49,740 nt of DNA, taken from IMG/VR virus record IMGVR_UViG_3300030328_003197, positions 1-49,740 of that record. One strand, 5' to 3'. Source of the stretch: a virus. Below the pieces are notes generated by a model. The model did no database searches. It saw only the letters and a program-made list of their open reading frames with translations, and was not told where the DNA came from. Of this stretch, positions 15,394 through 49,457 are shown piece by piece (position 1 is the first letter of the stretch; every line of letters starts with the position of its first letter). The translations under genes and the position numbers were made by a program.

Positions 15394-16082
15394 GGAGTAT
15401 ATATGATTTCGTAATAGAACCTTTAGGAGATAGATATAGTAATACTAAGAAAATTTCTGATTCTGAGTTAATTTTAAATACTAATATTTCTAATTTTAAA
15501 AGTGTTAATAAACTAGCTAGAGTGGTATCAACTCCTCTAGCTTACACCACTGATATTGAAAAAGGAGATATAGTTGTAGTTCACCACAATATATTTAGAA
15601 GATTTCATAACATTAGAGGAGAAGAAGTTAATAGTCGCTCTTATTTTAAGGAGAACTTATACTTTTGTGCTGTGGATCAATTATATTTATATAATAAAAA
15701 CAATGAATGGATAACTTTTTTAGATAGATGTTTTATTGCTCCGATTAAAAGTAACAATAAATTTACTACAGAAAAAACTAGTATTCAAAAAGGAATAATT
15801 GTTTATGGTAATCCTAAGTTAAAAGAATATAATTTAGAAATAGGAGATTTAATATCTTTTAAAAAAGATAGAGAATTTGAATTTACTATTAATGATCAAT
15901 TATTGTATTGTATGAAATTAAATGATATAGTTGTTAAATATGAACACGAAAGAAACGAAGAGATTTATAATCCAAGCTGGGCACGAAGCAGTGAAGGAAT
16001 TGATAAAAGTGGCGAAGGAGGAGATTGTAGATACAGGGGAGGATGTATCTGCGGACCGACTAAAGAACGCAGCTGCCACTAA
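15390..16082 (+). CDS. tandem GroES-like (Cpn10-fold) protein
   Basis: 230 residues. Residues ~7-100 follow the Cpn10 plan: VIEPLGDRY (first strand), a loop ending SELIL (mobile-loop tripeptide position), ARVVSTPL, DIEKGDIVVVHHNIFR (the 'VKxGDxV' strand) and VDQLYLY (the 'EDIL' strand). Residues ~110-195 repeat the plan more weakly: FIAPIKS, GIIVYGNP, NLEIGDLISF, LNDIVVKYEH. A two-barrel co-chaperonin is therefore likely, distinct from the single-barrel GroES at 6906. The last ~32 residues form a Gly/Cys tail (GGDCRYRGGCICGP) encoded in the overlap with the next gene. The chaperone role is inferred from pattern only. Confidence 0.55.
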   Translation: MRSIYDFVIEPLGDRYSNTKKISDSELILNTNISNFKSVNKLARVVSTPLAYTTDIEKGDIVVVHHNIFRRFHNIRGEEVNSRSYFKENLYFCAVDQLYLYNKNNEWITFLDRCFIAPIKSNNKFTTEKTSIQKGIIVYGNPKLKEYNLEIGDLISFKKDREFEFTINDQLLYCMKLNDIVVKYEHERNEEIYNPSWARSSEGIDKSGEGGDCRYRGGCICGPTKERSCH

Positions 16083-16224
16083 AAAGTTAGCTATATTTGA
16101 TGCTTTTGAAATTCTACAAAGAATTGAAGAGGAAGAAGAGTTATTAAAAGAAAAACCTGTAGAAGAAGTTACTAAAACACCTAGAGGTTTTAAGGGTTTT
16201 GCAGAAGGGAGAAGTAAGACATGA
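15940..16224 (+). CDS. small helical protein before terminase (TerS position)
   Basis: 94 residues from ATG 15940. A TTG at 15931 is also possible, and conserved-looking sequence begins only near QAGHEAVKELIKVAKEE. Two amphipathic helices (VKELIKVAKEEIVDTG and KLAIFDAFEILQRIEEEEELL) end in a basic tail (TPRGFKGFAEGRSKT). It overlaps the upstream gene by 143 bases in another frame and the large terminase by 4 bases. A small-terminase or terminase-accessory role fits the position, but no DNA-binding domain is recognisable. Confidence 0.6.
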   Translation: MNTKETKRFIIQAGHEAVKELIKVAKEEIVDTGEDVSADRLKNAAATKKLAIFDAFEILQRIEEEEELLKEKPVEEVTKTPRGFKGFAEGRSKT

Positions 16225-18449
16225 CTTATATACCTACATTATCTAAAATTGTAAATGATGTAGTTAATCCAAAACTTTTAAAAACAAACAACCGTTTAAA
16301 AAAGTGGGATTATGGTTATAATTCAGATTACGATTTTATAGTAATAAGTAAAACTGGACAAATTGGAGAGATCATTGAAATTCAAAACCTGCGTATTGCA
16401 TTACCAGCAGAAGATGAATGTTTTAAACGAAGCGAAAATAAAGAGGAACAGTATTGGGAAAAACAAGAATATCCAAAAGAATTAAAACGAATTAAAAATC
16501 GTTTTGATTGGGAAAAATACCCTCAAGATTTTCGCGAAGAATGGTGGGATTATATAGATGAAGAATTTAAAAGAAGAGATGAAGGACATTGGTTTTATAA
16601 TAATGGTAAACCTACTTATATCACTGGTACTCATTACATGTACTTGCAATGGTCAAAAATCGATGTTGGAGCTCCGGACTATAGGGAATCAAACAGGTTA
16701 TTCTTTATTTTCTGGGAAGCCTGTAAAGCAGATACTAGATCCTATGGAATGTGCTATCTTAAAAACAGACGATCAGGTTTTTCATTTATGTCATCAGCTG
16801 AACTCGTTAATGAAGCAACCATATCATCCGACAGTAGATACGGGATTTTATCTAAAACTGGTGCAGATGCTAAAAAAATGTTCACAGATAAAGTTGTACC
16901 AATCTCGATTAACTATCCGTTTTTCTTCAAACCAATCCAAGATGGTATGGATCGCCCTAAAACCGAATTGGCATATAGGGTTCCGGCATCTAAACTCACA
17001 CGTAGAAAACTGGAGGTCAATGAAGAGCTTAGAGAACTAGAAGGGTTAGACACTACGATAGATTGGAAAAACACTGGAGACAATAGTTATGATGGTGAAA
17101 AACTAAAGTTATTAGCACACGATGAAAGTGGTAAATGGGAAAAACCTGATAATATAAAGAATAACTGGAAAGTAACTAAAACCTGTTTAAGACTAGGTAG
17201 TAGGATTGTAGGTAAATGTATGATGGGTTCAACGTCTAACGCTTTAGATAAAGGAGGACAAAACTTTAAAGATATATATACAGGTTCTAATGTTTTAAAT
17301 AGAAATAAAAACGGTCAAACTAAAGAAGGTTTATATTCGCTTTTTATTCCAATGGAATGGAATTATGAAGGTTTTATAGATAAATATGGTTATCCTGTAT
17401 TTGATACTCCTAAAAAACCTATTATAGGTATTGATGGTACATTGATAAGTATAGGTGTAATTGAACACTGGGAAAATGAAGTTGAAGGATTAAAACAAGA
17501 TCAAGACGGTCTTAATGAATATTATAGACAATTTCCTCGTACTGAAAAACACGCTTTTAGAGATGAGACTAAAGAATCTTTATTTAATCTAGTTAAGATA
17601 TACGAACAAATTGACTATAACGAAGAATTAAACAACGTGGCCGAGGTTACTCAAGGAAGTTTTCAATGGAGCAATGGAATAAGAGATACGCAGGTAGAGT
17701 TTGTACCTTCTGCTAATGGACGATTTAAGATAAGTTGGGTTCCTCCTAAATCTCTTCAAAATCAAGTAATTATAAAGAATGGATTAAAATATCCTGGTAA
17801 TGACCACTTAGGAGGTTTTGGTTGTGATAGTTATGATATTAGCGGAACTGTTGATGGAAGAGGTTCAAAAGGATCTTTACACGGTTTAACTAAATTTAGT
17901 ATGGAAGACGCTCCTTCTAACAAGTTTTTCTTACAATATATTTCTAGACCTCCAACTGCTGAAACGTTTTTTGAAGATGTGTTAATGGCATTAGTGTTTT
18001 ACGGTATGCCAATATTAGCAGAAAACAACAAACCAAGATTACTTTACTATTTAAAGCGTAGAGGATATAGAATGTTCTCTATGAATAGACCAGATAAAAT
18101 ATGGAATAAACTTTCTGTAACAGAGAAAGAAATAGGTGGTATTCCAAACTCCAGTCAAGATGTGATACAAGCACACGCCGCCGCAATTGAATCTTATATT
18201 GACAATTACGTAGGTTTTAAAAATGATACATATGGTGATATGTATTTTCAAGAAACTTTAGAAGATTGGGCAAAATTTAATATAAACAATAGAACCAAGC
18301 ATGATGCTTCTATTAGTTCTGGGTTAGCTATAATGGCTTGTAATAAAAACAAGTATAAACCACTAGCTGCTCGAACAGTTAGAGAAGTAAACTTAGGAAT
18401 AAAGAGATACGACAATGATGGAATTCTTTCAAAAATAATTAATAAATGA
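16221..18449 (+). CDS. terL: terminase large subunit (packaging ATPase/nuclease)
   Basis: 742 residues. The motor pumps DNA into the procapsid and cuts it. ATPase part: a divergent Walker A-like loop at residues 183-188 (RRSGFS, without the canonical Lys), Walker B at LLAHDES with Asp301-Glu302, and the coupling motif GSTSN at 336-340. RNase H-like nuclease part: GFGCDSYDI gives acidic residues Asp536 and Asp539, with further acidic positions toward the C-terminus (IESYIDNYVG). The order and the ~740-residue length fit terminases of crAss-like and related podoviruses. It overlaps both neighbours by 4 bases. Confidence 0.88.
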   Translation: MTYIPTLSKIVNDVVNPKLLKTNNRLKKWDYGYNSDYDFIVISKTGQIGEIIEIQNLRIALPAEDECFKRSENKEEQYWEKQEYPKELKRIKNRFDWEKYPQDFREEWWDYIDEEFKRRDEGHWFYNNGKPTYITGTHYMYLQWSKIDVGAPDYRESNRLFFIFWEACKADTRSYGMCYLKNRRSGFSFMSSAELVNEATISSDSRYGILSKTGADAKKMFTDKVVPISINYPFFFKPIQDGMDRPKTELAYRVPASKLTRRKLEVNEELRELEGLDTTIDWKNTGDNSYDGEKLKLLAHDESGKWEKPDNIKNNWKVTKTCLRLGSRIVGKCMMGSTSNALDKGGQNFKDIYTGSNVLNRNKNGQTKEGLYSLFIPMEWNYEGFIDKYGYPVFDTPKKPIIGIDGTLISIGVIEHWENEVEGLKQDQDGLNEYYRQFPRTEKHAFRDETKESLFNLVKIYEQIDYNEELNNVAEVTQGSFQWSNGIRDTQVEFVPSANGRFKISWVPPKSLQNQVIIKNGLKYPGNDHLGGFGCDSYDISGTVDGRGSKGSLHGLTKFSMEDAPSNKFFLQYISRPPTAETFFEDVLMALVFYGMPILAENNKPRLLYYLKRRGYRMFSMNRPDKIWNKLSVTEKEIGGIPNSSQDVIQAHAAAIESYIDNYVGFKNDTYGDMYFQETLEDWAKFNINNRTKHDASISSGLAIMACNKNKYKPLAARTVREVNLGIKRYDNDGILSKIINK

Positions 18450-20905
18450 TTTATACGAATACTAGAAGTTCATTTCCTGATCAGGTAGTACCTGAGGCAG
18501 AGAAAATGAGTTTAGAATATGGATTGTTAGTAGGACGAGCAATAGAAAGTGAATGGTTCAGTCAAGGATTAGGAGGAGAAAGATATTCTTTTAACTATAA
18601 TATTTTTCACCAAAGAAGATTGTATTCTAGAGGAGAACAATCAGTTCAAAAATATAAAGATGAACTTTCTATTAATGGAGATTTATCTTATCTAAACCTA
18701 GATTGGAAACCAGTTCCTGTTATCCCCAAGTTTGTTGATATAGTAGTTAACGGAATGAGCAATAAGAATTATGAAATAAAAGCTTTTGCTCAAGATCCAG
18801 CTTCAAGACAAACGAGAACTAAGTATGCAGAAAAAATTGCAAAAGATATTGCAACAAGAGAGTTTACTAAAGCGGTAGAGAAATCTTTTGGAGTAGATAT
18901 CAGTGAGACTAGAGGGATGGAGAATGTTCCACAAGACGAACAAGAGTTAGAAATTCACATGCAGTTAGATTATAAACAATCTATAGAAATTGCAGAAGAG
19001 GAATTAATTGATAATGTATTAGAAAGAAACAAATATAATTTAACTAAAAATAGATTTAATAGGGATTTAGTAGTTTTAGGAATAGGTGCTGTAAAAACTA
19101 ATTATAATAGATCTAATGGTATAGTAGTAGAATATTGCGATCCAGCAAACATGGTATGGTCATATACCGAAGATCCTAATTTTGAAGACATATATTATGT
19201 AGGTGAAGTTAAAAATATATCTCTACCGGAATTAAAGAAACAATTTCCTGATATAACTTCTCAAGAATTGCAAGAAATTCAAAAGTATCCTGGTACTAGA
19301 AATTATACTAGAAACTGGTCGGGAAAAGATGATAACAACACAGTTCAAGTATTATACTTTGAATACAAAACTTATGGTGATCAGGTATTTAAAATAAAAA
19401 GAACAGATAGCGGTCTAGAAAAAGCAATTCAAAAACATGATTTTTTTAATCCACCACCTAGTGATAATTATGATAGAGTTTCTAGATCTATTGAAGTCTT
19501 ATATCATGGTGCTAAGATATTAGGTCACCCTATAATGTTAGAATGGAAAGTTGCGGAAAACATGACAAGACCATTTTCTGATCTTACTAAAGTAAACATG
19601 AATTACCAACTATGTGCACCACACATGTACAAAGGTAGAATAGAATCTTTAGTAGAGAGAATGATGGGTTTTGCTGACATGATTCAGTTAACTTCCTTAA
19701 AACTTCAACAAGTTTTAGCTAGAACTGTTCCAGATGGAGTATTTGTAGATGTAGACGGATTAGCAGAAGTGGATTTAGGTAATGGAACCAACTACAACCC
19801 TGCAGAAGCTTTAAACATGTATTTCCAAACTGGTAGTATCGTAGGTAGGTCTATGACACAGGATGGTGATCTAAACCATGGCAAGGTACCTATCCAGGAG
19901 TTAAATAGTTCATCAGGACAAGCTAAAATTCAATCTCTCATCCAAACATACCAATATTACCTTCAAATGATCAGAGATGTCACCGGATTGAACGAGGCGC
20001 GTGATGGTAGTACTCCAAATGAAGAAGCTTTAGTAGGTTTACAAAAATTAGCAGCAGCTGCATCTAATACTGCTACTAAACATATATTAAACGCTAGTTT
20101 ATATTTAACATTGAGAGCTTGTGAGAATATATCATTAAGAGTTGCAGATTGTTTAGAATTTGATTTAACAAAAGAAGCTTTAATAAATAGTATTAGTTTA
20201 TACAATGTTAAAACTTTAGAAGAAATCCAATCTCTACATTTATACGATTTTGGCATTTATCTACAAGTAGAACCTGATGAAGAAGAAAAAGCGATGCTTG
20301 AGCAAAATATTCAAATGGCTTTACAGCAACAATCAATAAATCTAGAAGACGCTATTGACATTAGGGAAATAAATAACTTAAAGTTAGCTAATCAATATTT
20401 GAAGTTGTTAAGAAAAAAGAAAGCTAAAGAAGATATGGCCAAACAAAAACAAATGATGGCTATGGAAGAGCAGAAAAACGCTAAACAAGTTCAAGCGGCT
20501 GCTACTGCTGAAATGCAAAAACAACAAGCTTTAGCTCAAAGTGAATTACAAGTAGAACAAGGTAAGTCACAATTTGATATTCAGAAATTACAAGCAAAAG
20601 CTCAAATCGACAAAGAATTAATGACTATGAAATTTGAATTTGACAAGCAGTTAAAGCAAATGGAAATAGGTGCTGCTACTCAAAAAGAAGCAGAAATTGA
20701 AGATAGAAAAGATAAACGAACTAAATTACAAGCTACACAACAAAGTGAAATGATTGCTCAAAGAAAAAATGGTGGATTACCAATGAACTTTGAAAAATCA
20801 CAAGGAGATCCATCTGAGATGGGTGGAGATCCACCTTTATTAAATACTGGTGAAGGAATGACTCCTCCGCCTGGGCCGGGTGCTCCGATGATGCCGCCAC
20901 AATAA
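18446..20905 (+). CDS. portal protein
   Basis: 819 residues. It forms the dodecameric ring at the capsid vertex through which DNA is packed and ejected. Core features are the early segment WKPVPVIPKFVDIVVNGM, a stem/clip-like region (VVEYCDPANMVWSY), helices around IRDVTGLNEARDG and LVGLQKLAAAASNTATK, then a long Lys/Gln/Glu coiled coil (about residues 640-760) and a Pro/Gly/Met-rich tail (PPPGPGAPMMPPQ). The length and helical barrel-like extension fit P22-type and crAss-like portals. The start overlaps the terminase stop by 4 bases, the classic TerL-portal junction. Confidence 0.87.
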   Translation: MIYTNTRSSFPDQVVPEAEKMSLEYGLLVGRAIESEWFSQGLGGERYSFNYNIFHQRRLYSRGEQSVQKYKDELSINGDLSYLNLDWKPVPVIPKFVDIVVNGMSNKNYEIKAFAQDPASRQTRTKYAEKIAKDIATREFTKAVEKSFGVDISETRGMENVPQDEQELEIHMQLDYKQSIEIAEEELIDNVLERNKYNLTKNRFNRDLVVLGIGAVKTNYNRSNGIVVEYCDPANMVWSYTEDPNFEDIYYVGEVKNISLPELKKQFPDITSQELQEIQKYPGTRNYTRNWSGKDDNNTVQVLYFEYKTYGDQVFKIKRTDSGLEKAIQKHDFFNPPPSDNYDRVSRSIEVLYHGAKILGHPIMLEWKVAENMTRPFSDLTKVNMNYQLCAPHMYKGRIESLVERMMGFADMIQLTSLKLQQVLARTVPDGVFVDVDGLAEVDLGNGTNYNPAEALNMYFQTGSIVGRSMTQDGDLNHGKVPIQELNSSSGQAKIQSLIQTYQYYLQMIRDVTGLNEARDGSTPNEEALVGLQKLAAAASNTATKHILNASLYLTLRACENISLRVADCLEFDLTKEALINSISLYNVKTLEEIQSLHLYDFGIYLQVEPDEEEKAMLEQNIQMALQQQSINLEDAIDIREINNLKLANQYLKLLRKKKAKEDMAKQKQMMAMEEQKNAKQVQAAATAEMQKQQALAQSELQVEQGKSQFDIQKLQAKAQIDKELMTMKFEFDKQLKQMEIGAATQKEAEIEDRKDKRTKLQATQQSEMIAQRKNGGLPMNFEKSQGDPSEMGGDPPLLNTGEGMTPPPGPGAPMMPPQ

Positions 20906-36319: not shown

Positions 36320-39300
36320 ATGGCAGAAGATCTAGAAGTAGAAGAGTTTGTAGAAGATAATACTCAGACTGACTCACCGTGTCCGGAATGTCCTGATGGA
36401 AGTTCACCAGGAAGAGATCCAGATGGTAATTGTTTACCATGCGCTCCGGAAGGAACCGTAGTGACTAAAGATGAACGTGGACAAGAAGTTAGTGTTAAAA
36501 ATCAAGCTGTAGCAGATGAAATAGAAGGGAAAAAAGCTTTAGCTAGATTAGACAAAGCTGAAGGTAAAAAACCTGAAAATCAAGCTCAAGAAGGTTTAGA
36601 TGAACTAAACACAATCGTGGACAACGTTGTAAGTAAAGTTGGGGATGATGCCGATTATGAACTAAATGATTGGGAAACAAACTTGATAGAGCTTTCTACC
36701 ATGCAAGACGAGGAAGGTTCTACTGTGGTTCTAGATAACGGAGAAAGGGTTTATAATCCGTTAAACGAAATAAATCAAACTAAATTAAAGCAAGTTGTTT
36801 CACAAGCTTCAAATGGGGTTAGGATTCCTGCTTCTCCAGAAAACTTAGGATTATTAGAAACTTATGGATATACTTTTATTGAGGTAACTCCTGAACTTAG
36901 ACATGCGGGTGTAACTTATGAATATATATTAGAATTAGGTAATATAAATAACTCTCCTAACGTTGTTAAAAAAATTCCAATAGATAAGTCTTCTTCTTCG
37001 GCAGATCAAGAAAAACCTTTAACTCCTGAGGGAGTGCAACCTAGTGAGTTAAGACAACAAAGTGAATCATTCCAAGAAGATATTCAAAGTCAACTTCCTC
37101 AACCAAGCGAGGAAGAGGTTACTGCTAATTTAGATGTCCTAGCTTCAACTATGCAGACGACTGAGAATGAAAAGTGGTTTATGATACAGAATAATGTTGG
37201 TGTTATAAATGATTATCGTCAAGAGGAGGGAAATGAAGCTATAATTATAGACCCTGATGGAAATATTATTGGTACGGCTGGTGTTCCTTTAGGAAATACG
37301 CAAACTCCTCAAAGAATGCCTGAAAATGTTTTAGAAGAAATTACTGAGTTATTGATTAGCGGTCCTGATGCTATACAGCCTAGTAGACAAACATTATATT
37401 ATTTAGGGTTAGTACAGTTTGAGGATGATAGATGGATGAATCAAGAGGAAAAAGAAGCAGAAGAAGAAATGCTTACTAGTCAAACTGGATTCACTGAAAC
37501 TCCACAAGAAGGATTAAATAACTTAATGATAGAAACTTTAAATCAACCTAGATTTGAAGGAGTACTTCGGTATGTTATAGATAACGACGCACAGGTTACT
37601 AGAAGAGATAATCTTTATAATATAATGGGTGTTGATGAAAAAGGAGAACTAACTAAATCAAGGATTGATGGTACTACCCCTATGTTTAACGGTAAACCTT
37701 TTGATCCCGCAAAAGGAACACCACTACAACAAGCAGCTTATATTCAGCAAAAACAAACCTTAGACGGAATACAAAAGTCTTTTCTTCCTGTTACTTGGGA
37801 TTTAGAATACGCAGCAGACATGAAGTATAAAATGGCTCATGCCTCAAGCGTAGAAGAATTTGAAGATTTACAATCAGAATGGAAATCATATATTCAAAAA
37901 CAAGACGTTGATGGTGTTGAAGAAGACACCGAAATGCTTTATAATCCTCAAACTGGTAACTTATTTAGAAGAGATGAAATAGATCCGGAAGATATTACTA
38001 AGTATAATCTTATCCCACTAGAACAGTTTGTACAGTCAGAATTTAGGTTTACTGATGAAGATCAATTACTCGAAAACATCATGGATCAATCCTTTGATTT
38101 AATTGCTGCTGCAAAGCTAATGTCCGAATCAGATAATTTTGGGTTTCAAGCGACTGCATGGAATAGAGATCTTATAGGTATAATTAATAAAATAGCAGAC
38201 CAAGGAAGTTTAGATGGACTCAAGACGGACAAGAGGTCTCCGTTTATAGGGAAATTAAAAAAGTTCCATTTTCCTGACAGTCCAATTGAACACCAATGGA
38301 ACAACTTAATAAACAAACTAACAGTTACGTCTAGAGCTTATTTAATGAACTTTGATCCATTAACCTTAGAAAGAGATGGTACAGCAGATGGTTTTACAGA
38401 TAGAGCTGCTGAATGGTTAGGAGTGGATAACGTGTCTCCTGATGAAGAAAAAACTGTCTGGGCTAATCATTTTCAAGAAGATTTTCCAGAATTGTGGAAC
38501 AGCATGACACAGGTGGAAAGAGATGCTTTTTATGAAAGTAGTGCATGGAGAAGCTTTGGGCAAGGAAGTTTTGATTTTGCAATTATAGCTGCAGAGTTTT
38601 TATTAACTAGAAAGTTAGTTGGTGGTACTTTAACTAGAATACTTTATGGAGACGCAAAGTACGGGTTTACAGGTTTAAGAGGAATAGCTGCTCAAGCTAA
38701 AACTGGAAGTAGTTATAACGCTTTAGCAATAAAAGTTGGAGCTGGAAATGGTGGTAAAGCTACTAAAAGCATGATTGACTGGAGCATGTATTATGCTGAA
38801 GAAGTAGGTATTGTAGCAGCTAATGATGTTATATGGCAAGAGGAAATGAATCCATTTTATTTTCCTATAGGTATTGCTACTATGAGAACAGTATTGAATA
38901 GAGCTCCTGCTGGTTTCTTATCTAAATTAGATGATCCTAAATGGGTTAAAGCTAATCCTGCAAAAGCCACTCAGTTAAAGAAAATACATAACGTATTAAA
39001 AGTAACAGGTTTTCCAGCTACATTAGAAGAAGCTGCAGTTCAAGCAAAAGCTATAGTTACTGGTGCTGGTACTTTAAAGACTGGTGGTTTCTTTGAAGGA
39101 CTTGGGCACGCTATCGAAAACCCAGACGATTCCGGTTTAATTGCAGAAGCTTTTTTAAACTTTGTTGACCCTAAGGATTGGGCTAATACAATGGGGTTTT
39201 TAGTTGCTAATAGATTACTTTTACCAGACAAAGCAAATAGGGCAATGTTTAATAAATTTAAACTTGATGCTAGAAGATTATTAGATGTTGATAGAAGAAG

Positions 39301-42300
39301 CTTTGCAAGTACTCTAGGTGGTAGTAGAAAGTCTTTTTACGATCCTAAAACTCCTTTAGGAACTAGAACTCGTAATATTGATAACGCTGCCTCTAAAGCA
39401 AAGAAAAGCAGAGGGCTTAATATTGGTGATGAGAGTAATTCTGATAGAATTTATGAAAGCATTAAAAACGATTTTAAACAATTAGGGATTTCAATTAGTG
39501 AGATAAAAGGTAAGAGCTTGCAAGAGATTGGAGAGCTAATGAGATCTAAAGCTAATGAGAAAAACAATGGAGAAGGGGTTAGTAATCCTGACGTAGCAGC
39601 AATGACCAAAATTTATGACTTCCTACAAGGTGGAGGAGTTACTGTTGAAAGTCTAGTTAACCATCACGAAATTAGTACTGCACAAAACTTTTCTCACGCT
39701 GTTAATGAGACTCAAGCGGCCATGCACTTGTATGATAAAAGTAACGCTGCTGGAGCATACGATCCAGATGATTTTGCAAAAACAGCTGTTGGACAAAAAC
39801 AAGGATGGGTACCTAACTCTAGAGAGTTACAATTTATAGGTAATACTAGTAACAACGCTTTAAAAGTAATGTTAAACGAAGCAGGATGGACTGAAACTCA
39901 AATTTCACAATGGTTAGGTAAATGGACTGCTGTAGCAGAAAATATACAAGCTGCTACTTTTAGATATGGGTTTAAAGCTGGTTCTCCAGAACAACAACAA
40001 TACATAAGAAATGAGCAAAAATATACTAATTTAGTAGATATATTAGCGGTAGCTAAGGAAGAGTTTAAAAACAATCCTAACAGTGTTAATACATTAAATC
40101 TTGAAACAGCTCAAAGTAAAGTTGATGCTCAATTAAAAAAACAGATTGATTTAATAACTGAACAAAAGAAAAGGACGAAAGAACAAGGAGAAGAGTTTCT
40201 TAACAAAGCCCAAGAAGAAGGAACAGAGGTTTATGAAACTACAGCAGAATTAATGGCAAGAATTGATGAGTTAGCTGCAAACGATCCAGCTATGGCACCA
40301 GAGTTAATGCGATTAAAAAGAAAAGTTGAATATGAAAAACAATTTACTGTTGAAGATAATCAAAAACTAGATGATTTAGATTACGAAATTGAACAAGCTG
40401 ATTTAGCAGGGGATTTAGATCTTTTAAAAGATTTGCAAGCACAGAAACAACTTATAATAGATAACGCTGCAGATGTAGGTTCTAAAGGGTTCTCATTACC
40501 TAACGGTGTTAGTATAGTTAACAAAGAGTATATCGGTAACGAGCTTAAAACCATGATGAACGCGAGAATAGGTGATTGGGCCACTGGTCAACATGAAAAT
40601 GTTCACCATTGGGTTAACGATATAATGCGTCAAAAAGGTTGGAAAACAGCTGAAGGTAAATGGGTGCGAGGTGGACAAATTAAAGCTAGAGAGTTTGTAA
40701 AAAAATTCAAGAATCTTCTTACTGAACCTCAACGAAAAATAATTTTACAACGCTTATCTAAAGACGGTAGTTATCAAAGAGATCCTCAAGGAAGTATAGA
40801 ATGGTTAAATTATTATGCTGAGGCTTTACTTAATGGTGAATTAGACTATGGTTATAATGATATTAAGCAAATGGCTGATTTAATTGGATCAGAACTTAAA
40901 GCAGGAGCTAAACAAATGGGTATGTCAGATGCAGAGTTTGAACTATCTCCTGAAGGTATGATGAACTTTCTGTTAGGTTACGCTGCAGATACGCGTAAAG
41001 GAGGAATGTCTTACAGAAACAAGGTTATGGCGGTAATGGCTGGTAAAAAAGTGGATCTATCTGACAAAGACGTTAAAGAGGTTGAAGCTACAGTTGAGGA
41101 TCTTGAAGGTAAAGTTATTGAATGGAGCGAAGAGTTAAAGGAATTTGAAGCTAAAAAGAAAGAATTAATAAAAGAAAAGTCTAAGGCTAGTTATCAGTAC
41201 ATGGCTGGCGACATGACTAAAGAAGATTATCAAGACAGAATAGATGGTTTGAATTTGAAAATCAAATTAGCTAAAGACATGATTTCAAATGTTTCTGATA
41301 AAGATAGCTCGTTAGAGATAAGAATAAGAAACGCAAAGAATATGGAGATAATAAAAGATCTAAGTATTCCTCAATTTGATTCTAGAAGAGTTAGAGCTGA
41401 CAACCAATTGTTTGAAGATAACCAAGGTATTTTGCAAGAAGAAAGAGCTAAATATAATCCTAATTTAGGAGAAGGTATTACTAGATCTGACTGGAATGCG
41501 CAAATATATTCCTATTATACCGATGCTGTGAAGAGTTATACTCCTAGTAAAGGTGCTTTTTCCACTTATTTAAAATCTACTTTAAACCACAAGTTAGGAA
41601 ATTATATTGATAAAAACTTAGACAAACTAACTAAAGATTCGGGCGAATACCACAAGAAAAGACCTGATCAGCAAGTAAGCTCTGGTGGTGATGAAATGAC
41701 AAACGCATGGGATATAACCATGCAACAGATTGATAAAGGTTATTTAACTGAAGGTTCTCCTGATGTTACGATAGATTACGATATTGGTGGAAATAAAGGT
41801 TCTGTATCAAAAGGAAATAATAGAGATTATAGTCTTTCTGGAGCTGACGCGAACAAGATTTTATCTGAAGAATTTAATATGAATACCAACGAGATGATTG
41901 GCATGATAAATGAGGCTTTAGGTAAATTAGGTTTGGAAAACTTTACAATGAAAGGTTTACATACTGAAAAAATCACTCTTGAAGATGGAACGGAAATGCC
42001 TTTAGGAAGAGCTTTAGAAATGAGTATTAGAGAGCAATTTGGACCAGAAATACATACGGCTAAAGATGGAGGATTGAAATGGGGAGCAAAAGAAAAAGAA
42101 CATTGGAAGACTTTTTTAAATGAACATTGGGAAACTATATATCAACTTTTACCTGAAAACTTAACTAGTGAATCTTTTACTACTAGAGGAGGTCAATCAA
42201 CTGGAGTACGAAACGTATTATTAAATGAGTTTTATACTCAAAAAGATAGAGTAGGTGCAGGACAAGGTTTTTCTGATAAAGGAGTTGGTTCTAAATGGCA

Positions 42301-45300
42301 AGAAAAAAATCCTGTTGATTTTAAAAGTAATATAGATAAAGAAAACTTTATTGCTTTCGTAATGGGAGGTAAGAATAGATTGGAAGCTATATTAAACGAA
42401 ATGGCTAAAACAACTGGTAATCAACTTGCTAGACAAACTAAAGACGCTGCAACCCAACAAAAAATACTACAACAAGGTATAGATAATCCCGAATATGAAA
42501 AATATACTGAAGAGCAATTCTTAAATAATGTTGAGGCTCAGTTAAGATCTGGTATGAGTAAGATGGCTGATTCTGAAGGAAGAATATTATTTTCAGAAGA
42601 AATGCAACAGAAAGGTTATGATGAAGTAGCTGAAGCAGTGTTGGTATTCAATGATTACAACCAAAAACATAAACCTGTAAAAGGCAAAAATTTCTTTGAA
42701 TATTACAGGGATTGGAAAGAAGGTGATCGCGAAAATATTCCAGACTCCATGTTAGCCGATATAATGCAGGTGGATATGGATATATTACAGAAGATTCAAA
42801 CCAAAGCAGGCTCTAAAAGATTTGGACAAAAGTTTACTGATTTTGTAAGTGAAGAAGATAACATACAAAAAGTTGGAGCTAACTTTAATAGAAACGCAAC
42901 TGAAGTAAAAAGCATGCTTAAGCGTCTTGAGAAACAAAAAGCAAGTTTCTATACTGTAAAAGGTGATGATAAAATCTGGGATAAAGATGCTTTAGCAAAA
43001 TTTGATAAAACACATCAAGAGTTTTTTGAATTTGTAATGACTTCTTTTCCTGAACTAAATAAGTTCACTCAAAAAACAGGGAATAGATACGACATCACTA
43101 AGGGTAAAGAAATGCTTACTCAGATGTTTGGTATTGGATCTAGAACTACAGGTGGAAAAGATATTGATATAAGTCATAAATGGTTTAAACCAGAAAACTT
43201 TAAAGAAGCTTTAGATAATCCTAATATATCTCAAGAAGCTAAAGATTATTTTAATGCTATTGACTGGAGTCAGATAACAGCTAACAACATAGGAGCGTTT
43301 AATAAAATAAAAAGTATTTTACAAGGAACTTATTATTCGACCGAAAAAGGTGGAGGATTAAAAACTAAACCTAGTGCTGATCGACAAGAAAAAATAGATG
43401 CTATTGCTAAAGAGCTTAAACCTGAAGCACAACAAGCTTTAGGAAATCTTTATAATTTTTGGGCAACAATGAAAAATGATTTTGTTGCAAGTAAAAATAA
43501 TGGTGGTAAGGGAGATATAGCCGGACTGGAAGATGCTTTAAGTTTTGTTAAACATTTAGAACAGTTCAACTCTAATTTAGTTTATGGACCAAGAGCAATG
43601 TATAATACTAAATACTTCTATGTTACTGAAGGATATCAAGATTTTACCGTAGATAATCCTATTTATAAACAAAGATATGACGATGTATTATATGAATATA
43701 GAGATCGTGATCCTAGTGAACCAATTACGATTGGAAAGAAAACGTATGACAACTTGTTTAAATATGCTGAATATGCAGCTAAGGAATGGGCTAAGTTTAA
43801 AGGAGAACATGTATACGATTCATCTAATCAATCTTATCAAGGATATGTTGATATATTAACAGGAAACACAGCGGAAGCTCTTAGAACTAAAGATTGGGAT
43901 TTAATGGTTCAAGTGATGTCTCCAAAAAGAAATTTAGATCGCATCGATAATCTTTATGGTAGTACTTCTCCTTATAACTATACCAGATTCGTTTCTGAAA
44001 ATAAATCTATATTAGAAAACTACATAGACCCAATGACTGGTGAAACTCTACTAGAGACTGTTAGAATGAAAGCTGGTAAACGTGTTGATGAAATATTAAA
44101 TAGAGATGTAGACATAAATAAATTACTTGAAAACCCAGCTTTTAAAGATAAGTTTGACGTTGTAGCTGTTACTGATGCGTTTAATAAATATGATGCTACC
44201 TCAGTTGCATTGGTAGAAACTTTACTCAACGCTATTAGAGATCCAAAAGCTGCAGAAGCTAGTACTGAAGCTGCTAATACTCAAGCTACAGAAAGATTAA
44301 ATGACATGGGTGTTGATGTTGAAATAACAGGTTTAAGTGAAACCGAAGCAAATCACGTGACACAAATGAGTGAAGAGTTTCAAAATCATGAAGGTACTGT
44401 TGATAGAAAACTAGGTGTTCCTACTAAAGAAGTTAAGGCGGAGGTTGGAGTGATGGATAGCGTAATGGAAGAAGTTACAGCAGAAATGGCAGATTTTGAT
44501 GACGTAACAGGTTCTTCAGAGACTATAATAAAATACACTACAAAAGATGGAGTAGTACATGAAATTACTCAAGATGTATTTAATGCTAAAAAATTAGAAA
44601 TAGAAAGTGCAGACGACTTCGTGGAAGGGTCCTGGGATTACGAAGGTTTTAATAGTATGGATAGCGCTGTAGAAGGACCTGATTTTCAATATCAATTAGA
44701 CACGTGGAATAGATTAGTAAAAGAAGGAAGACCAGAAGATTATTTTTTAATTACAGCACGAGGTCCTAAAGGAAGAGAAAATTATGTTCAATGGATGAAC
44801 GACCACGGTTTTGAAGGATTTACATTAGATAATTTAATTACTACTGAAGGAACATTAATTGAAGGAGCTGGTGATCATGTTTGGGATAACAAGAAAGTTA
44901 TAATGGGATTATTACCATTAGTATCTGGTCAACGTGGTAAGTTTTATAACAAAATAAATATATCTGAAGATTATCAACCTACGATAGAAGCTTTTGAAGT
45001 GGCATTAGAATCATTAGGTTTAGCTGGAGAACAAAGACTTATTATTGAAGAAAGTTCTGAATTATTTGGTTTAGAAGATAAAACTAATGCAATAGATATA
45101 TTATTAGAAGAAAGTTTTGGAATAGATAGAATTAAAGAATATTCTGCAGTAAGAGCTCATCAAATAGGTGAAAAATCTGGTAAAAGAACAGGATTACTAG
45201 GGCCTCAATACCAAGACATGGAAGGTATGTATTATGGAATTATCTCTCCAGGTAAACAAGGGGAAGCTCAATTAAAATATTTAAATGAAAATCATTTAGA

Positions 45301-47230
45301 TGTTTATATTGACAACCAAATGAAGCATGAGGGAGAAACTATAAGAATGGGTAAAGAATACAATGTTCTTAGAGAAGAAAACAATACTATATTAAAAGAT
45401 AAAAATAAAGTTTTAAAACTGGATGGAGTAGGTACTGAGTACACGTTAGAAGATGTTATTAGAATTGGTGCGTGGCAAGCAGTAGGTACAGAAATAAATG
45501 GAATTGCAAAATCTGATTTAACAGCTATAAATAACTATTTATCAGAACATCCAGAAATAGCTGCATTTTCTCAACGATTAGTAGGTATTAGTAAGTTAGG
45601 TACATACGAGGGTATGACTAATGATGCGTCTTGGAAAGCTGGAAGTATCGAAGGAGATTTATATAGTACTCTTAGAGGTTCAGTTAGAGACAATGTCTTT
45701 CAACCATTTTATATAGCCGATGCATTACTCTTCTCAGAGAGAAATGAAAATAAAATAAGAGTAGCTAGAGGAAATGCTTTTGGAGACGAATTCAATACAC
45801 TGAGACAAACCATGAGAGATGGTACTAATAGATTAGGTCAAGGTAATATTCAAGATCAAAAGTATTTAAATTACTTTACACAATGGCAACAAGCTGTAAT
45901 GAGTGTAAACTTTAGATCAATGGCTATGCAAACCACTTCGCTTACTAACTTTATTAATGTATCAGATAATAATATATTTGCAGCTGGTAAAGCTTTTGCT
46001 AATCAACCTAGATATTGGAGTGATGTTTCAGAGATTTGGAACTCAGATTGGGCAAAATCCCGAAGAGGTGGTGGTAATGAAATAGCTTCAGCAGAGATAA
46101 TTGAATTATTAAGAACATCTAAAGGCAATAAAATGCAAACCTTTTTAAATTATATGTTAGAAAAAGGGTATAAACCTGCTCAAATGGGTGATATTGCAGC
46201 TATAGTTTTTGGTGGTGCTCCATTGTTACATAATAGAACTCAAACCTATATTAAAAAAGGAATGAGTTATGAGGATGCGAGAGCCAAAGCTATGAAAGAT
46301 GTCTATAAAAAAGTACAGCGAAATCAACAGTCTCGTTTACCAGGATTTTTAGGCAATTGGCAGAAAAGTATGAGAGGTAGAATCTTTGGTGGATTCCATA
46401 CTACACAGTTTGCTTACGCAAGAGAAATAGATAAAGCTCTAAGAGATATAAAAAATAAAAGAGGTAGTTTAAAAGAAAACATATCTAAAGTTTTAAATTA
46501 TGGGGTTCTTCAACCTGCAGCTTTTGCAGCGGGACAAGGAGGTTTATTTATGTTATTAGCTAATGGATATAGCGAAGAAGAAGCTAAAGAAATGATGCTA
46601 CAAACTGGTAGAACTGCTGGTGGAAATGTTATGCAAGGTTTTGGAATGCCCGGTATAATATTAGATGTTTCATTGCAAGCTGGTGAAGAGCTTTATAAAC
46701 AGTATCAAAAAGAAGGTACTTGGCCTGGTCCTGATTATTCTAAAGCTTTAATGAAATTTTTAAATCTATCTCCAGCTGTGGGAGGTAAACTAAAACAATT
46801 TTTAGGAGCTGGTAACGCTATAAAGTATCAAACTAGTGTTACTAGAAACGGTAAAAAATATACTATAGACTACAAAGTTTATGATCCTAACAATCCTAAA
46901 TTTGAAGCAGCAACTAAAAGTCTTCAAGCTATCTTTAATATTCCTGCAGAGAATTTTAGAAAGTTATACGCTAATGCTTGGGCTATAGGTTTAAAAACTA
47001 TGGATCCAGCAGCTTGGGACTCAGGAGACATTTTAAAAGTTACTGCCTTGATGTTGGGTTGGCCAGAGTGGCAAGTTACTAGTCAAGCTGATAAAGACGC
47101 TAAACAAGCAGCAGAGAAAAAACAGATATTAGAAGAAAATTCTGAGCAAATAATGGAAGATCGATTTAATAAAGATAACTGGGGCGATAAAAATGACAAA
47201 GACCCTTTTGATAAAGCAGATAACTGGTAA
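36320..47230 (+). CDS. giant multidomain (polyvalent) internal virion protein
   Basis: 3,636 residues in one uninterrupted frame. N-terminus: a cysteine knot-like stretch (CPECPDGSSPGRDPDGNC, residues ~20-37). About residue 1425: HENVHH fits the HExxH zinc-peptidase motif, with Glu1501 (NYYAEAL) as a possible third ligand. About 1700-1760: SYTPSKGAFSTYLKSTLNHK resembles the helical core of sigma-like modules in polyvalent proteins. About 2725-2890: a HAD-like hydrolase pattern with DFDD (Asp2725), TAR at 2812-2814 and SED (Asp2884). About 3190-3430: a helical module (MAMQTTSLTNF, GRIFGGFHTTQFAYARE) typical of marine podovirus giants. It is probably packed in the head and ejected into the host. 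Start ATG follows the previous stop by 11 bases. Confidence 0.75.
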   Translation: MAEDLEVEEFVEDNTQTDSPCPECPDGSSPGRDPDGNCLPCAPEGTVVTKDERGQEVSVKNQAVADEIEGKKALARLDKAEGKKPENQAQEGLDELNTIVDNVVSKVGDDADYELNDWETNLIELSTMQDEEGSTVVLDNGERVYNPLNEINQTKLKQVVSQASNGVRIPASPENLGLLETYGYTFIEVTPELRHAGVTYEYILELGNINNSPNVVKKIPIDKSSSSADQEKPLTPEGVQPSELRQQSESFQEDIQSQLPQPSEEEVTANLDVLASTMQTTENEKWFMIQNNVGVINDYRQEEGNEAIIIDPDGNIIGTAGVPLGNTQTPQRMPENVLEEITELLISGPDAIQPSRQTLYYLGLVQFEDDRWMNQEEKEAEEEMLTSQTGFTETPQEGLNNLMIETLNQPRFEGVLRYVIDNDAQVTRRDNLYNIMGVDEKGELTKSRIDGTTPMFNGKPFDPAKGTPLQQAAYIQQKQTLDGIQKSFLPVTWDLEYAADMKYKMAHASSVEEFEDLQSEWKSYIQKQDVDGVEEDTEMLYNPQTGNLFRRDEIDPEDITKYNLIPLEQFVQSEFRFTDEDQLLENIMDQSFDLIAAAKLMSESDNFGFQATAWNRDLIGIINKIADQGSLDGLKTDKRSPFIGKLKKFHFPDSPIEHQWNNLINKLTVTSRAYLMNFDPLTLERDGTADGFTDRAAEWLGVDNVSPDEEKTVWANHFQEDFPELWNSMTQVERDAFYESSAWRSFGQGSFDFAIIAAEFLLTRKLVGGTLTRILYGDAKYGFTGLRGIAAQAKTGSSYNALAIKVGAGNGGKATKSMIDWSMYYAEEVGIVAANDVIWQEEMNPFYFPIGIATMRTVLNRAPAGFLSKLDDPKWVKANPAKATQLKKIHNVLKVTGFPATLEEAAVQAKAIVTGAGTLKTGGFFEGLGHAIENPDDSGLIAEAFLNFVDPKDWANTMGFLVANRLLLPDKANRAMFNKFKLDARRLLDVDRRSFASTLGGSRKSFYDPKTPLGTRTRNIDNAASKAKKSRGLNIGDESNSDRIYESIKNDFKQLGISISEIKGKSLQEIGELMRSKANEKNNGEGVSNPDVAAMTKIYDFLQGGGVTVESLVNHHEISTAQNFSHAVNETQAAMHLYDKSNAAGAYDPDDFAKTAVGQKQGWVPNSRELQFIGNTSNNALKVMLNEAGWTETQISQWLGKWTAVAENIQAATFRYGFKAGSPEQQQYIRNEQKYTNLVDILAVAKEEFKNNPNSVNTLNLETAQSKVDAQLKKQIDLITEQKKRTKEQGEEFLNKAQEEGTEVYETTAELMARIDELAANDPAMAPELMRLKRKVEYEKQFTVEDNQKLDDLDYEIEQADLAGDLDLLKDLQAQKQLIIDNAADVGSKGFSLPNGVSIVNKEYIGNELKTMMNARIGDWATGQHENVHHWVNDIMRQKGWKTAEGKWVRGGQIKAREFVKKFKNLLTEPQRKIILQRLSKDGSYQRDPQGSIEWLNYYAEALLNGELDYGYNDIKQMADLIGSELKAGAKQMGMSDAEFELSPEGMMNFLLGYAADTRKGGMSYRNKVMAVMAGKKVDLSDKDVKEVEATVEDLEGKVIEWSEELKEFEAKKKELIKEKSKASYQYMAGDMTKEDYQDRIDGLNLKIKLAKDMISNVSDKDSSLEIRIRNAKNMEIIKDLSIPQFDSRRVRADNQLFEDNQGILQEERAKYNPNLGEGITRSDWNAQIYSYYTDAVKSYTPSKGAFSTYLKSTLNHKLGNYIDKNLDKLTKDSGEYHKKRPDQQVSSGGDEMTNAWDITMQQIDKGYLTEGSPDVTIDYDIGGNKGSVSKGNNRDYSLSGADANKILSEEFNMNTNEMIGMINEALGKLGLENFTMKGLHTEKITLEDGTEMPLGRALEMSIREQFGPEIHTAKDGGLKWGAKEKEHWKTFLNEHWETIYQLLPENLTSESFTTRGGQSTGVRNVLLNEFYTQKDRVGAGQGFSDKGVGSKWQEKNPVDFKSNIDKENFIAFVMGGKNRLEAILNEMAKTTGNQLARQTKDAATQQKILQQGIDNPEYEKYTEEQFLNNVEAQLRSGMSKMADSEGRILFSEEMQQKGYDEVAEAVLVFNDYNQKHKPVKGKNFFEYYRDWKEGDRENIPDSMLADIMQVDMDILQKIQTKAGSKRFGQKFTDFVSEEDNIQKVGANFNRNATEVKSMLKRLEKQKASFYTVKGDDKIWDKDALAKFDKTHQEFFEFVMTSFPELNKFTQKTGNRYDITKGKEMLTQMFGIGSRTTGGKDIDISHKWFKPENFKEALDNPNISQEAKDYFNAIDWSQITANNIGAFNKIKSILQGTYYSTEKGGGLKTKPSADRQEKIDAIAKELKPEAQQALGNLYNFWATMKNDFVASKNNGGKGDIAGLEDALSFVKHLEQFNSNLVYGPRAMYNTKYFYVTEGYQDFTVDNPIYKQRYDDVLYEYRDRDPSEPITIGKKTYDNLFKYAEYAAKEWAKFKGEHVYDSSNQSYQGYVDILTGNTAEALRTKDWDLMVQVMSPKRNLDRIDNLYGSTSPYNYTRFVSENKSILENYIDPMTGETLLETVRMKAGKRVDEILNRDVDINKLLENPAFKDKFDVVAVTDAFNKYDATSVALVETLLNAIRDPKAAEASTEAANTQATERLNDMGVDVEITGLSETEANHVTQMSEEFQNHEGTVDRKLGVPTKEVKAEVGVMDSVMEEVTAEMADFDDVTGSSETIIKYTTKDGVVHEITQDVFNAKKLEIESADDFVEGSWDYEGFNSMDSAVEGPDFQYQLDTWNRLVKEGRPEDYFLITARGPKGRENYVQWMNDHGFEGFTLDNLITTEGTLIEGAGDHVWDNKKVIMGLLPLVSGQRGKFYNKINISEDYQPTIEAFEVALESLGLAGEQRLIIEESSELFGLEDKTNAIDILLEESFGIDRIKEYSAVRAHQIGEKSGKRTGLLGPQYQDMEGMYYGIISPGKQGEAQLKYLNENHLDVYIDNQMKHEGETIRMGKEYNVLREENNTILKDKNKVLKLDGVGTEYTLEDVIRIGAWQAVGTEINGIAKSDLTAINNYLSEHPEIAAFSQRLVGISKLGTYEGMTNDASWKAGSIEGDLYSTLRGSVRDNVFQPFYIADALLFSERNENKIRVARGNAFGDEFNTLRQTMRDGTNRLGQGNIQDQKYLNYFTQWQQAVMSVNFRSMAMQTTSLTNFINVSDNNIFAAGKAFANQPRYWSDVSEIWNSDWAKSRRGGGNEIASAEIIELLRTSKGNKMQTFLNYMLEKGYKPAQMGDIAAIVFGGAPLLHNRTQTYIKKGMSYEDARAKAMKDVYKKVQRNQQSRLPGFLGNWQKSMRGRIFGGFHTTQFAYAREIDKALRDIKNKRGSLKENISKVLNYGVLQPAAFAAGQGGLFMLLANGYSEEEAKEMMLQTGRTAGGNVMQGFGMPGIILDVSLQAGEELYKQYQKEGTWPGPDYSKALMKFLNLSPAVGGKLKQFLGAGNAIKYQTSVTRNGKKYTIDYKVYDPNNPKFEAATKSLQAIFNIPAENFRKLYANAWAIGLKTMDPAAWDSGDILKVTALMLGWPEWQVTSQADKDAKQAAEKKQILEENSEQIMEDRFNKDNWGDKNDKDPFDKADNW

Positions 47231-47236
47231 CAACAT

Positions 47237-47512
47237 ATGAAAGTAAATGAACAAACAGAAGTTAAATTAGACCTTAAAGGTATAATAAAAATTGTAATGT
47301 TAACAGCAACTTTTGTTGGCATGTATTACACTTTACAATCCGATATTGCAGAAGCAAAAACCCTTCCACCTGCTGAAATTAAAAGATTGGAATATGATTT
47401 AAAACAAGAATGGCAGACAAAACATATTGAAAAATTAGAAACCAAGGTTGACGAAATATTGTATTGGTGCAAAGAAGTTGATAAAGAAATATATAAAAAT
47501 AAAAAGAAATGA
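47237..47512 (+). CDS. small single-span membrane protein with coiled coil
   Basis: 91 residues. One membrane helix (about residues 14-33, GIIKIVMLTATFVGMYYTL) is followed by a charged helix (EIKRLEYDLKQEWQTKHIEK, LETKVDEILYW). This N-in single-span-plus-coiled-coil layout is shared by i-spanins and by several small phage membrane proteins; I recall relatives in marine phages annotated as unknown. No outer spanin partner is seen. It overlaps the next gene by 4 bases. Confidence 0.6.
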   Translation: MKVNEQTEVKLDLKGIIKIVMLTATFVGMYYTLQSDIAEAKTLPPAEIKRLEYDLKQEWQTKHIEKLETKVDEILYWCKEVDKEIYKNKKK

Positions 47513-48927
47513 AACACTTAATAACTTTAATATTTACTTTACTTATTATATTAGGATATTCTCAATGTGATAATGGTACTAATTATTATCCAAGTGCTAC
47601 TTACACTCCAGACAACAACACATGGGGTTCAGCTACTGCTTCTAATTGGGCTGGTGAAGTTATTAAAGTTAATATAACTAATGGAGATGAATATGAATTT
47701 TCAACTTGTAGTTCACATGGAGGAATATCCGCGTCTTACGATACACAACTTACGTTAAGAGATGAATTAGGTTTAGTTGCAGGTTTTAATGATGACTATA
47801 CTAGTTGCGGTTTAACTTCTTATATTAAGTATACCGCGACTTATACAGGTGTTTTATATGTTCATTTGAATCAATATAATTGTGCTACTAACTCTACCTC
47901 CACTCAGGTAATGATGAAAAAAACTCCAGTGTCAAGTGGGGGAGGAGGAGGAAACTCTAATGAAGTTACTATAGGAGATCCAAATTCTAATCTTCAAAAC
48001 GGGAGAGTTCCTGCTTATGGATATTATGACTATAGTTGGAGTGCTTCTATCTATACAGCGGCAGAACTAGGTAACACTCCTTTAACTATAGAGAAAATAA
48101 GTTGGAATGTAGCTAATTCAAGTTCTCTTAATTTAAATAATCAAGAGATCTGGATGGCTATGACTCCAGATGAAATATTTAACGATGGCACAATGCCTGA
48201 ACCTGGTAACGGGCCGTGGGATGCTTGGAAAAAAGTATATGATGGTACCTTAAGCTTTTCACCTGGATGGAATGAAGTTACATTACAAGGATTATATGGA
48301 TATGATGGAACACAAAACCTTTTAGTTAAGGTTGTTAATAATCATGGATCATGGGCTTCAAGTTATCCAGAATTTCAATACACAGCTAAATCTAACTCAG
48401 TTGTATATAATTATGATGATGGAGCTTTTCCATCTCCTATGGGTTACAGAAATTCTTATAGACCTAATACTGTATTTGGACACCAAGGTGGTGGTAGTGC
48501 TTTACCTATAGATCTTATCTCTTTTAATGCTGAACACTTAGGTGGAGAGTTTCATCCTATTGTTTTGGTTGAATGGATTATTTTATCTCAAGTGAATAAT
48601 GATTATTTCGAAATACAAAGAAGTGTTAATGTAGAAGAATGGTACACTATAGGAGTTGTGACAGGAGCTGGGAATAGTAACAGCCAAATGTCATATAGTA
48701 TAATAGATGATAATCCATTATATGGAGTTTCTTATTATCGTTTAAAACAAACTGATTATGATGGACAATACGAATCGTTTCGTCCTGTTTCAGTCTCAAT
48801 CAGTTCACAAGAAAAAACAATAGATAAAGTATATAATTTAATGGGTCAAGAAATAAACAGCACATATAATGGCCTTGTGTTAGAGTTCTATACTGATGGA
48901 ACATTTTCAAAAAAGTACTATAAATAA
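47509..48927 (+). CDS. secreted protein with type IX sorting-like C-terminus
   Basis: 472 residues. The signal peptide is MKHLITLIFTLLIILGYSQ (1-19), with likely cleavage next to Gln; Cys20 follows but there is no lipobox. Residues ~25-145 form a beta-sandwich typical of Bacteroidota secreted proteins (NGDEYEFSTCSSHG). After a Gly5 hinge, residues ~155-325 form a second beta domain (IGDPNSNLQNGRVPAYGYYD). Residues ~335-425 (LPIDLISFNAE, YFEIQRSVNVEEW, VSYYRLKQTDYDGQY) and the end (YNLMGQEINS, YTDGTFSKKYYK) match the pre-tail and the 'GQ-x(n)-G' sorting domain of type IX secretion substrates. In a phage this suggests capture from a host and display or release outside the cell. Starts 4 bases inside the preceding gene. 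Confidence 0.78.
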   Translation: MKHLITLIFTLLIILGYSQCDNGTNYYPSATYTPDNNTWGSATASNWAGEVIKVNITNGDEYEFSTCSSHGGISASYDTQLTLRDELGLVAGFNDDYTSCGLTSYIKYTATYTGVLYVHLNQYNCATNSTSTQVMMKKTPVSSGGGGGNSNEVTIGDPNSNLQNGRVPAYGYYDYSWSASIYTAAELGNTPLTIEKISWNVANSSSLNLNNQEIWMAMTPDEIFNDGTMPEPGNGPWDAWKKVYDGTLSFSPGWNEVTLQGLYGYDGTQNLLVKVVNNHGSWASSYPEFQYTAKSNSVVYNYDDGAFPSPMGYRNSYRPNTVFGHQGGGSALPIDLISFNAEHLGGEFHPIVLVEWIILSQVNNDYFEIQRSVNVEEWYTIGVVTGAGNSNSQMSYSIIDDNPLYGVSYYRLKQTDYDGQYESFRPVSVSISSQEKTIDKVYNLMGQEINSTYNGLVLEFYTDGTFSKKYYK

Positions 48928-48932
48928 CAAAA

Positions 48933-49457
48933 ATGGAAGGAATAAAAAGAGATATCTCAATAACGATGCAGTTAAGAAAATTGCAAAAGGAAATAAAGGA
49001 ACTTAAACCAAAGACATGTGAAGAACTATGTGCGGCTAAGGATTTAGCTTTTCAACAAGTAGGAATCACAGCACAAGAACTAGAGCAAGCAAATCAAGCT
49101 TTTCTAGCCGCCCAAGATGCTGTAGATGATGCTGCTGCAGCCGAAGCAGAAGCAGGACAAAATCTATCTGAAACACAACAAAGCAATATAGAATGTACAG
49201 AGCAATGTGAGCCGCTTCCAGCAGGACAAGTTTGCGTTGATGGTTGTAATGATGAATTTAATGTTGATGCAGCACAAGACGCATTACAAGCAGCTGAAGA
49301 AGCTTCTACTCAAGCTTTACTAGCTTTAACAGACGCAGAGTTAGCAGATGCAGTTGCTAAAGCAGCTTTTGATGATGCTAAAATAGTTTATGAAGAAGCA
49401 AATAAAGCAGCTGAAGAGGGTGAGTGTGATTGTCCAGATCCTAAAAAATCAAAATAA
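48933..49457 (+). CDS. Ala-rich coiled-coil protein with fibre-type N-terminus
   Basis: 174 residues. The start MEGIKRDISITMQLRKL is a variant of MQGIKKDIELENEIRKI from the two fibre-like genes at 7170 and 8241. The rest is an alanine/glutamate-rich helix series (AAQDAVDDAAAAEAEAG, AAEEASTQALLALTDAELA), broken by cysteine groups (CEELCA, CTEQC, CVDGC) and ending in CDCPDP. A long helical rod joined by paired cysteines and anchored by the common N-terminus is the simplest model; no family is known to me. Starts 5 bases after the previous stop. Confidence 0.6.
   Translation: MEGIKRDISITMQLRKLQKEIKELKPKTCEELCAAKDLAFQQVGITAQELEQANQAFLAAQDAVDDAAAAEAEAGQNLSETQQSNIECTEQCEPLPAGQVCVDGCNDEFNVDAAQDALQAAEEASTQALLALTDAELADAVAKAAFDDAKIVYEEANKAAEEGECDCPDPKKSK

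Follow-up and report, generated by a model that had tools for sequence, protein, structure and literature searches.

The window analysed here is the whole of IMG/VR virus record IMGVR_UViG_3300030328_003197, a stretch of 49,740 nucleotides. Its terminase large subunit and P22-like portal identify the contig as a podovirus fragment, and several virion proteins are also encoded. Contamination with host DNA was considered and ruled out, both by the presence of terminase and portal on the same contig and by the occurrence of the same terminase (80-98% identity) on 11 contigs of close relatives. The phage is related to Cellulophaga and Flavobacterium phages, the nearest named terminases being those of the uncultured podovirus MW202828 (63%), of Flavobacterium phages of the elemo group (44.5%) and then of Cellulophaga phages; its hosts are marine Flavobacteria-like bacteria. 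The window contains its own GroEL and a GroES-like gene (5366-6922 and 15390-16082; PHROG E=2.6e-136 for GroEL), as does MW202828. The features considered below are as follows.

16221..20905, plus strand: terminase large subunit and P22-like portal, marking the contig as a podovirus.
47237..47512, plus strand: ORF for a 91-residue protein that has a single membrane helix and finishes in a coiled-coil-like stretch; it overlaps the start of the next gene.
47509..48927, plus strand: whole gene for a phage-encoded putative type IX secretion cargo of 472 residues, defined by its ORF, its viral relatives and a dN/dS of about 0.15.
47509..47565, plus strand: signal-peptide-like start, residues 1-19, with a predicted cut before C20 and a helix at residues 2-16 in the model.
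47563..47928, plus strand: N-domain, residues about 19-140, with invariant cysteines C20, C67, C100 and C125, common to the Flavobacteriales proteins L020-L025.
47956..48474, plus strand: middle beta domain, residues about 150-322, defined by the family alignment and missing from relatives of about 285 residues.
48502..48789, plus strand: fibronectin-III-like (FN3) domain, residues about 332-427, containing YYRLKQTDYDG and defined with AlphaFold2 and Foldseek.
48799..48924, plus strand: short sorting-domain-like tail, residues about 431-472, with strands at 438-443, 455-461 and 466-471.
48933..49457, plus strand: ORF for an Ala/Glu-rich protein of 174 residues, downstream of the candidate cargo gene and with a counterpart in some relatives only.

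The candidate cargo gene begins with ATG and overlaps the stop codon of the upstream gene by four bases (ATGA). A reading made earlier from the sequence only had placed an ORF at exactly this position, and the segments that it quoted, VSYYRLKQTDYDGQY, YNLMGQEINS and YTDGTFSKKYYK, are all found in the 472-residue protein. It had also put the gene inside a late operon with an overlapping start and denied that it is a random insertion, and here too we agree: the gene lies on the late strand and overlaps the 91-residue gene, about 20 viral relatives exist, the close ones at the same genome place, and 59 different viral proteins bear the tail, as do proteins of at least 20 cellular genomes. The low dN/dS (for example, dN 0.108 and dS 0.73 against relative L001) indicates purifying selection on the protein, and the gene is real.

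The 91-residue protein matches phrog_20984, a family of unknown function, and appears to be holin- or spanin-like. An Amidase_2 endolysin candidate (E=2.3e-13) is found at 10597-11010, distant from this holin-like gene at 47237. Further upstream, positions 36320-47230 encode a giant protein of 3636 residues that neither Pfam nor PHROG matches; its N-terminal 200 residues likewise had no counterpart in the phage collection searched. It is possibly a virion-injected polyprotein. Giant counterparts with 28-92% identity over the aligned part occupy the same place in relatives. That of MW202828 has about 3860 residues, and no equivalent of the candidate cargo gene is obvious beside it.

Two beta-rich domains had been proposed for the 472-residue protein; there are in fact three, namely the N-domain, the middle domain and the FN3 domain, followed by the three-stranded tail. 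The clear signal peptide claimed by the same reading is upheld, in that the start, MKHLITLIFTLLIILGYSQ followed by C20, has the form of the N-terminal Sec signal peptide expected of type IX cargo. A simple rule served to call signal peptides; it assigned a signal-like start to 60 of the 63 viral members of the C-terminal set whose start is complete, compared with 11 of 173 control ORFs. The possibility that the protein is a lipoprotein was rejected, since a glutamine precedes C20, leaving no proper lipobox, and since C20 is among the four cysteines kept invariant in the cellular homologues too. AlphaFold2 modelling of the last 142 residues, using 53 viral sequences, gave a mean pLDDT of 89. 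In this model the FN3 domain has seven strands and an additional short one at its edge, and the tail is a separate three-stranded unit placed after the sandwich; the full-length model yields the same strands. Foldseek matches to the full-length model were to generic beta-sandwiches, with TM values of 0.15-0.19, and were set aside. Sequence searches of the PDB found no convincing relative of the N-domain or middle domain; one hit to a designed protein (E=1.5e-4) contained no passing stretch and was judged due to chance. Neither Pfam nor PDB sequence searches revealed an enzyme or membrane-active domain in the protein. The N-terminal and middle domains probably bind glycans or proteins of a surface or matrix.

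The C-terminus had been assigned to the Bacteroidota sorting domain on the strength of its GQ motif and basic finish. The profile models do not bear this out directly: TIGR04183 and PF18962, which describe type A domains, fail to match the 472-residue protein even at E<=10, and hence at their curated cut-offs; TIGR04183 has no match anywhere in the window; and whole-protein searches of Pfam and NCBIfam (E<=10) and of PHROGs were empty. Evidence was therefore sought in the family instead. When profiles of the short and long tails were compared, the GQ motif alone was aligned, with a probability of 8%, which is insufficient as proof of homology. The tail does, however, have the length (40-55 residues) and, in a high-confidence model, the three strands of the short sorting domains of Prevotella intermedia, as well as their glycines in motifs B and D and basic motif E; the residues in question, G446, G455 and K468, are invariant in the tail alignment A2. 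It departs from them in motif D, where GLV is found rather than GxY or GxN followed by Ile, and in the absence of their PT/GI cleavage motif. The short tail always forms the end of the protein. Sequence and model thus support its reading as a putative short sorting-tail variant that existing models do not describe.

Relatives are encoded by 19 IMG/VR loci, with identities of 52-84% over the best segment, and a profile search brought in three further loci (L034, L040 and L041). There are two main architectures, one of about 470 residues, composed of signal peptide, N-domain, middle domain, FN3 domain and tail, and one of about 285 residues in which the middle domain is lacking. In the viral homologues L009, L010 and L034 a canonical PF18962 domain, above the Pfam cut-off (38 bits against 27), occupies the position of the short tail. 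The order giant protein, 91-residue membrane protein, candidate cargo gene is kept in the closest group, the 91-residue gene lying directly upstream of the cargo gene or, where one small gene intervenes, one gene further upstream. In L007 (554-2855) the cargo gene is on the strand opposite to the 91-residue and giant genes, which shows that its orientation with respect to the late operon can be reversed.

Proteins of Flavobacteriales and Crocinitomicaceae also contain the N-domain and its invariant cysteines. Among these proteins, L022 ends in the type B domain CHU_C and L023 in the type A domain PF18962, both above cut-off, and the end of L025 is similar to CHU_C by eye; SprA is present in six of six genomes with such proteins. 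A tail-only profile matched a single genome among 296 Bacteroidota, being too short and narrow for sensitivity, and for this reason the FN3 domain was added to it. The resulting FN3-plus-tail profile matched 105 of 150 Flavobacteriales genomes, with matches reaching the end of the short tail in at least 20 genomes, 20 of 20 of which have SprA. Many of the proteins matched are complete, open with a signal-like sequence and terminate at the tail (e.g. L047, L048, L049, L051, L061, L062 and L068); L066 and L072 are further cellular proteins ending in it. The short tail is consequently not a phage oddity but a cellular C-terminal element missed by current models. Scans of L047, L048 and L068 gave no Pfam match, from which it follows that counts of type IX cargo in Flavobacteriales are probably too low.

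In the sample of 296 Bacteroidota genomes, all 69 positive for the FN3-plus-tail profile were among the 229 with SprA and none among the 67 without (P=1.5e-9, with no correction for kinship and with most matches covering FN3 only, few reaching the tail); in one of the 69, G275, the SprA match is weak. The family is in this sample confined to genomes with the SprA/Sov translocon, as expected of type IX cargo, mostly on the strength of the FN3 signal. Within the Flavobacteriales, where 147 of 150 genomes have SprA, co-occurrence is weak evidence, because nearly all members of the order possess the translocon.

The same profile returned 76 viral loci which, together with the viral loci found earlier, account for distinct proteins of two kinds, 59 with the short tail and 10 with a long one. 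Modules identified among 48 scanned viral proteins were MAM (11), CUB (9), P-domain (3) and the long sorting domain (9). Among 20 additional contigs, 10 have a T4-type capsid gene above cut-off, which means that the trait is not confined to one type of phage; relatives are also present in huge-phage records, that of L153 being a secreted-type protein of 236 residues with a variant tail. At least six exchanges between phages and cells are forced by well-supported branches of the domain tree. Two phages each have two secreted-type genes close together (L117, 2403-5543 and 5694-9296; L142, 112-1113 and 3993-5429). In seven sister phages (L087-L089, L091, L094, L097 and L099) the cargo gene stands directly before an M15 endolysin gene, preceded, where the contig extends that far, by a gene for a coiled-coil membrane protein of 61 residues and followed downstream by genes for a small membrane protein and a lipoprotein. 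The endolysin neighbours link the cargo gene with the lytic phase, at a late stage of infection. In L097 (4381-6405) the 61-residue protein, a CUB short-tail protein, an overlapping M15 peptidase, the small membrane protein and the lipoprotein follow in succession, in what is likely a lysis cassette with a type IX cargo among its members.

The 472-residue protein is, in our judgement, probably a phage-encoded type IX cargo, whose export would come late and lead to display on the cell. This reading is based on the canonical PF18962 domain at the tail position of viral homologues; on the cellular N-domain proteins ending in PF18962 or CHU_C; on the short tail in at least 20 SprA-positive Flavobacteriales genomes; on the match of the three-stranded tail fold to the short sorting domains of P. 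intermedia; and on the signal-like start, purifying selection, swappable binding modules before a constant end, and endolysin neighbours. The proposal of the sequence-only reading that the protein leaves through the host type IX system has accordingly gained indirect support from the family, the cellular proteins and the fold, while the direct test of the protein against the sorting-domain models failed. Its actual export, final location, timing and role we infer from these lines together. The Sec system would move the protein into the periplasm by way of its signal peptide, where the short tail would be recognised; SprA/Sov would then carry it across the outer membrane, to be attached to the cell surface or released from it. 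The tail would be the putative export signal; homologues carry recognised sorting domains. Gene order suggests late expression of the cargo, whose gene belongs to the run that also holds the structural genes and comes right behind that of the small membrane protein. Sequence does not discriminate among the three roles offered by the sequence-only reading, namely a block to superinfection, altered adhesion and help with virion release. The role that we favour, tentatively and as something short of probable, is that it coats or masks the surface of the dying cell and its debris, sparing progeny from re-adsorption or the cell from superinfection.

Other readings have to be weighed against these. 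The export route could be as proposed and the role lie instead in lysis or release, the surface protein loosening the outer membrane, S-layer or capsule matrix. The endolysin neighbours in the seven sister phages and the overlap of the window gene with a holin-like gene speak for such a role, yet the window protein has no recognised enzymatic or membrane-active domain, the amidase of the window is encoded far away and other phages have non-lysis neighbours; on balance we think it rather unlikely. That the protein alters the behaviour of the infected cell, through aggregation, attachment to particles or algae, or gliding, and so places progeny near new hosts, would suit the CUB, MAM and P-domain modules of the sister proteins and the repeated exchange between cells and phages. 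The late position of the gene, however, leaves little time for this ahead of lysis, and we hold it improbable.

Two further readings dispense with export across the outer membrane. The protein might stay in the periplasm or be anchored in the outer membrane, the tail being an ordinary folded domain and no sorting signal, as the silence of the sorting models and the weak profile similarity to long sorting domains would allow. Canonical long sorting domains nevertheless substitute for the tail within the family, the tail is always terminal, and the start is unsuited to a lipoprotein for the reasons given above, all of which makes this reading distinctly doubtful. The idea of a virion fibre or decoration protein, with a hydrophobic start that merely resembles a signal peptide, draws on the position of the gene within a structural and late run, on the frequency of beta-sandwich domains in fibres and on lambda tail-tip chains among the full-length Foldseek matches. 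Those matches are of the generic kind already described, the relatives are secreted-type cellular proteins, and a fibre would have no export signal, while the start found here is signal-peptide-like and such starts are far commoner in the viral set than in the control ORFs; the signal peptide above all makes the fibre reading highly improbable.

Returning to phage-encoded type IX cargo, the chances seem to us evenly balanced that several lineages of marine Bacteroidota phages (podoviruses, T4-like myoviruses and jumbo phages) share a strategy in which modular late proteins carry exchangeable binding domains on a type IX tag of about 40 residues and remodel the host surface, via host secretion, around lysis, the tag belonging to a widespread, unmodelled class of sorting signals in Flavobacteriales. 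Were this so, phages of a major group of ocean bacteria would commonly remodel the cell surface by means of host secretion. The short tail would also be a minimal export signal, open to testing and overlooked by current models, and because of that oversight Flavobacteriales and their phages probably have more type IX cargo than is annotated.

An analogy of function is provided by Llp of phage T5, a small, phage-made outer-membrane lipoprotein that acts from the periplasmic side, blocking receptors and sparing progeny. The likeness is one of how the proteins may work: Llp is not type IX cargo and homology is not claimed. Phage-encoded type IX cargo as such was already reported in 2020, for Cryophage, where three genes with recognised type IX sorting domains, termed there a unique occurrence, led to the proposal that the host system is hijacked (PMC7468147). 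Apart from this and the crAss-like case below, searches confined to the open-licence literature found no report of such cargo, and none of short sorting tails in phages; given that scope, priority cannot be claimed. The novelty lies in a short tail of this kind in both phages and Flavobacteriales, in how widely it occurs, and in its lysis-gene setting in sister phages. Cryophage resembles the present case in its phage genes with sorting domains; these are type A, borne by an endoglucanase, a GH39 hydrolase and a PA14 protein encoded by variable accessory genes (PMC7468147), whereas the window phage has an unmodelled short tail, binding modules and a conserved late position. Another parallel is with the crAss-like BACON phages, Bacteroidota phages in which sorting-domain proteins are encoded close to the head genes; one sorting-domain case plus neighbouring genes was reported, in proteins whose domains differ from those of the window protein (PMC6949934).

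As regards the tail itself, type A domains (TIGR04183/PF18962) share with it a C-terminal position after a beta-sandwich cargo with a signal peptide, the GQ motif and the basic end, and they exchange with it inside the family; the window tail differs in having about 40 rather than 70-80 residues, three strands rather than seven, and no model match. In P. gingivalis the last 22 residues of one sorting domain are enough for export (reviewed in PMC5445135 and PMC10202324). Ye et al. (2025) described three-stranded short sorting domains in P. intermedia cargo, some of it shown to be cleaved and glycosylated, and predicted that the strands correspond to strands 3, 6 and 7 of the long form (PMC11969387). 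Those domains have about 43-55 residues and a gap of 1-6 residues between motifs B and D (PMC11969387); the window tail shares their length, three strands, glycine motifs B and D, basic end and short B-D gap, and differs in missing GxY and the PT/GI motif. Short and long domains were reported there from P. intermedia only (PMC11969387), whereas the short tail occurs here in phages and in Flavobacteriales, whose tails, if functional, extend the short domains of Ye et al.
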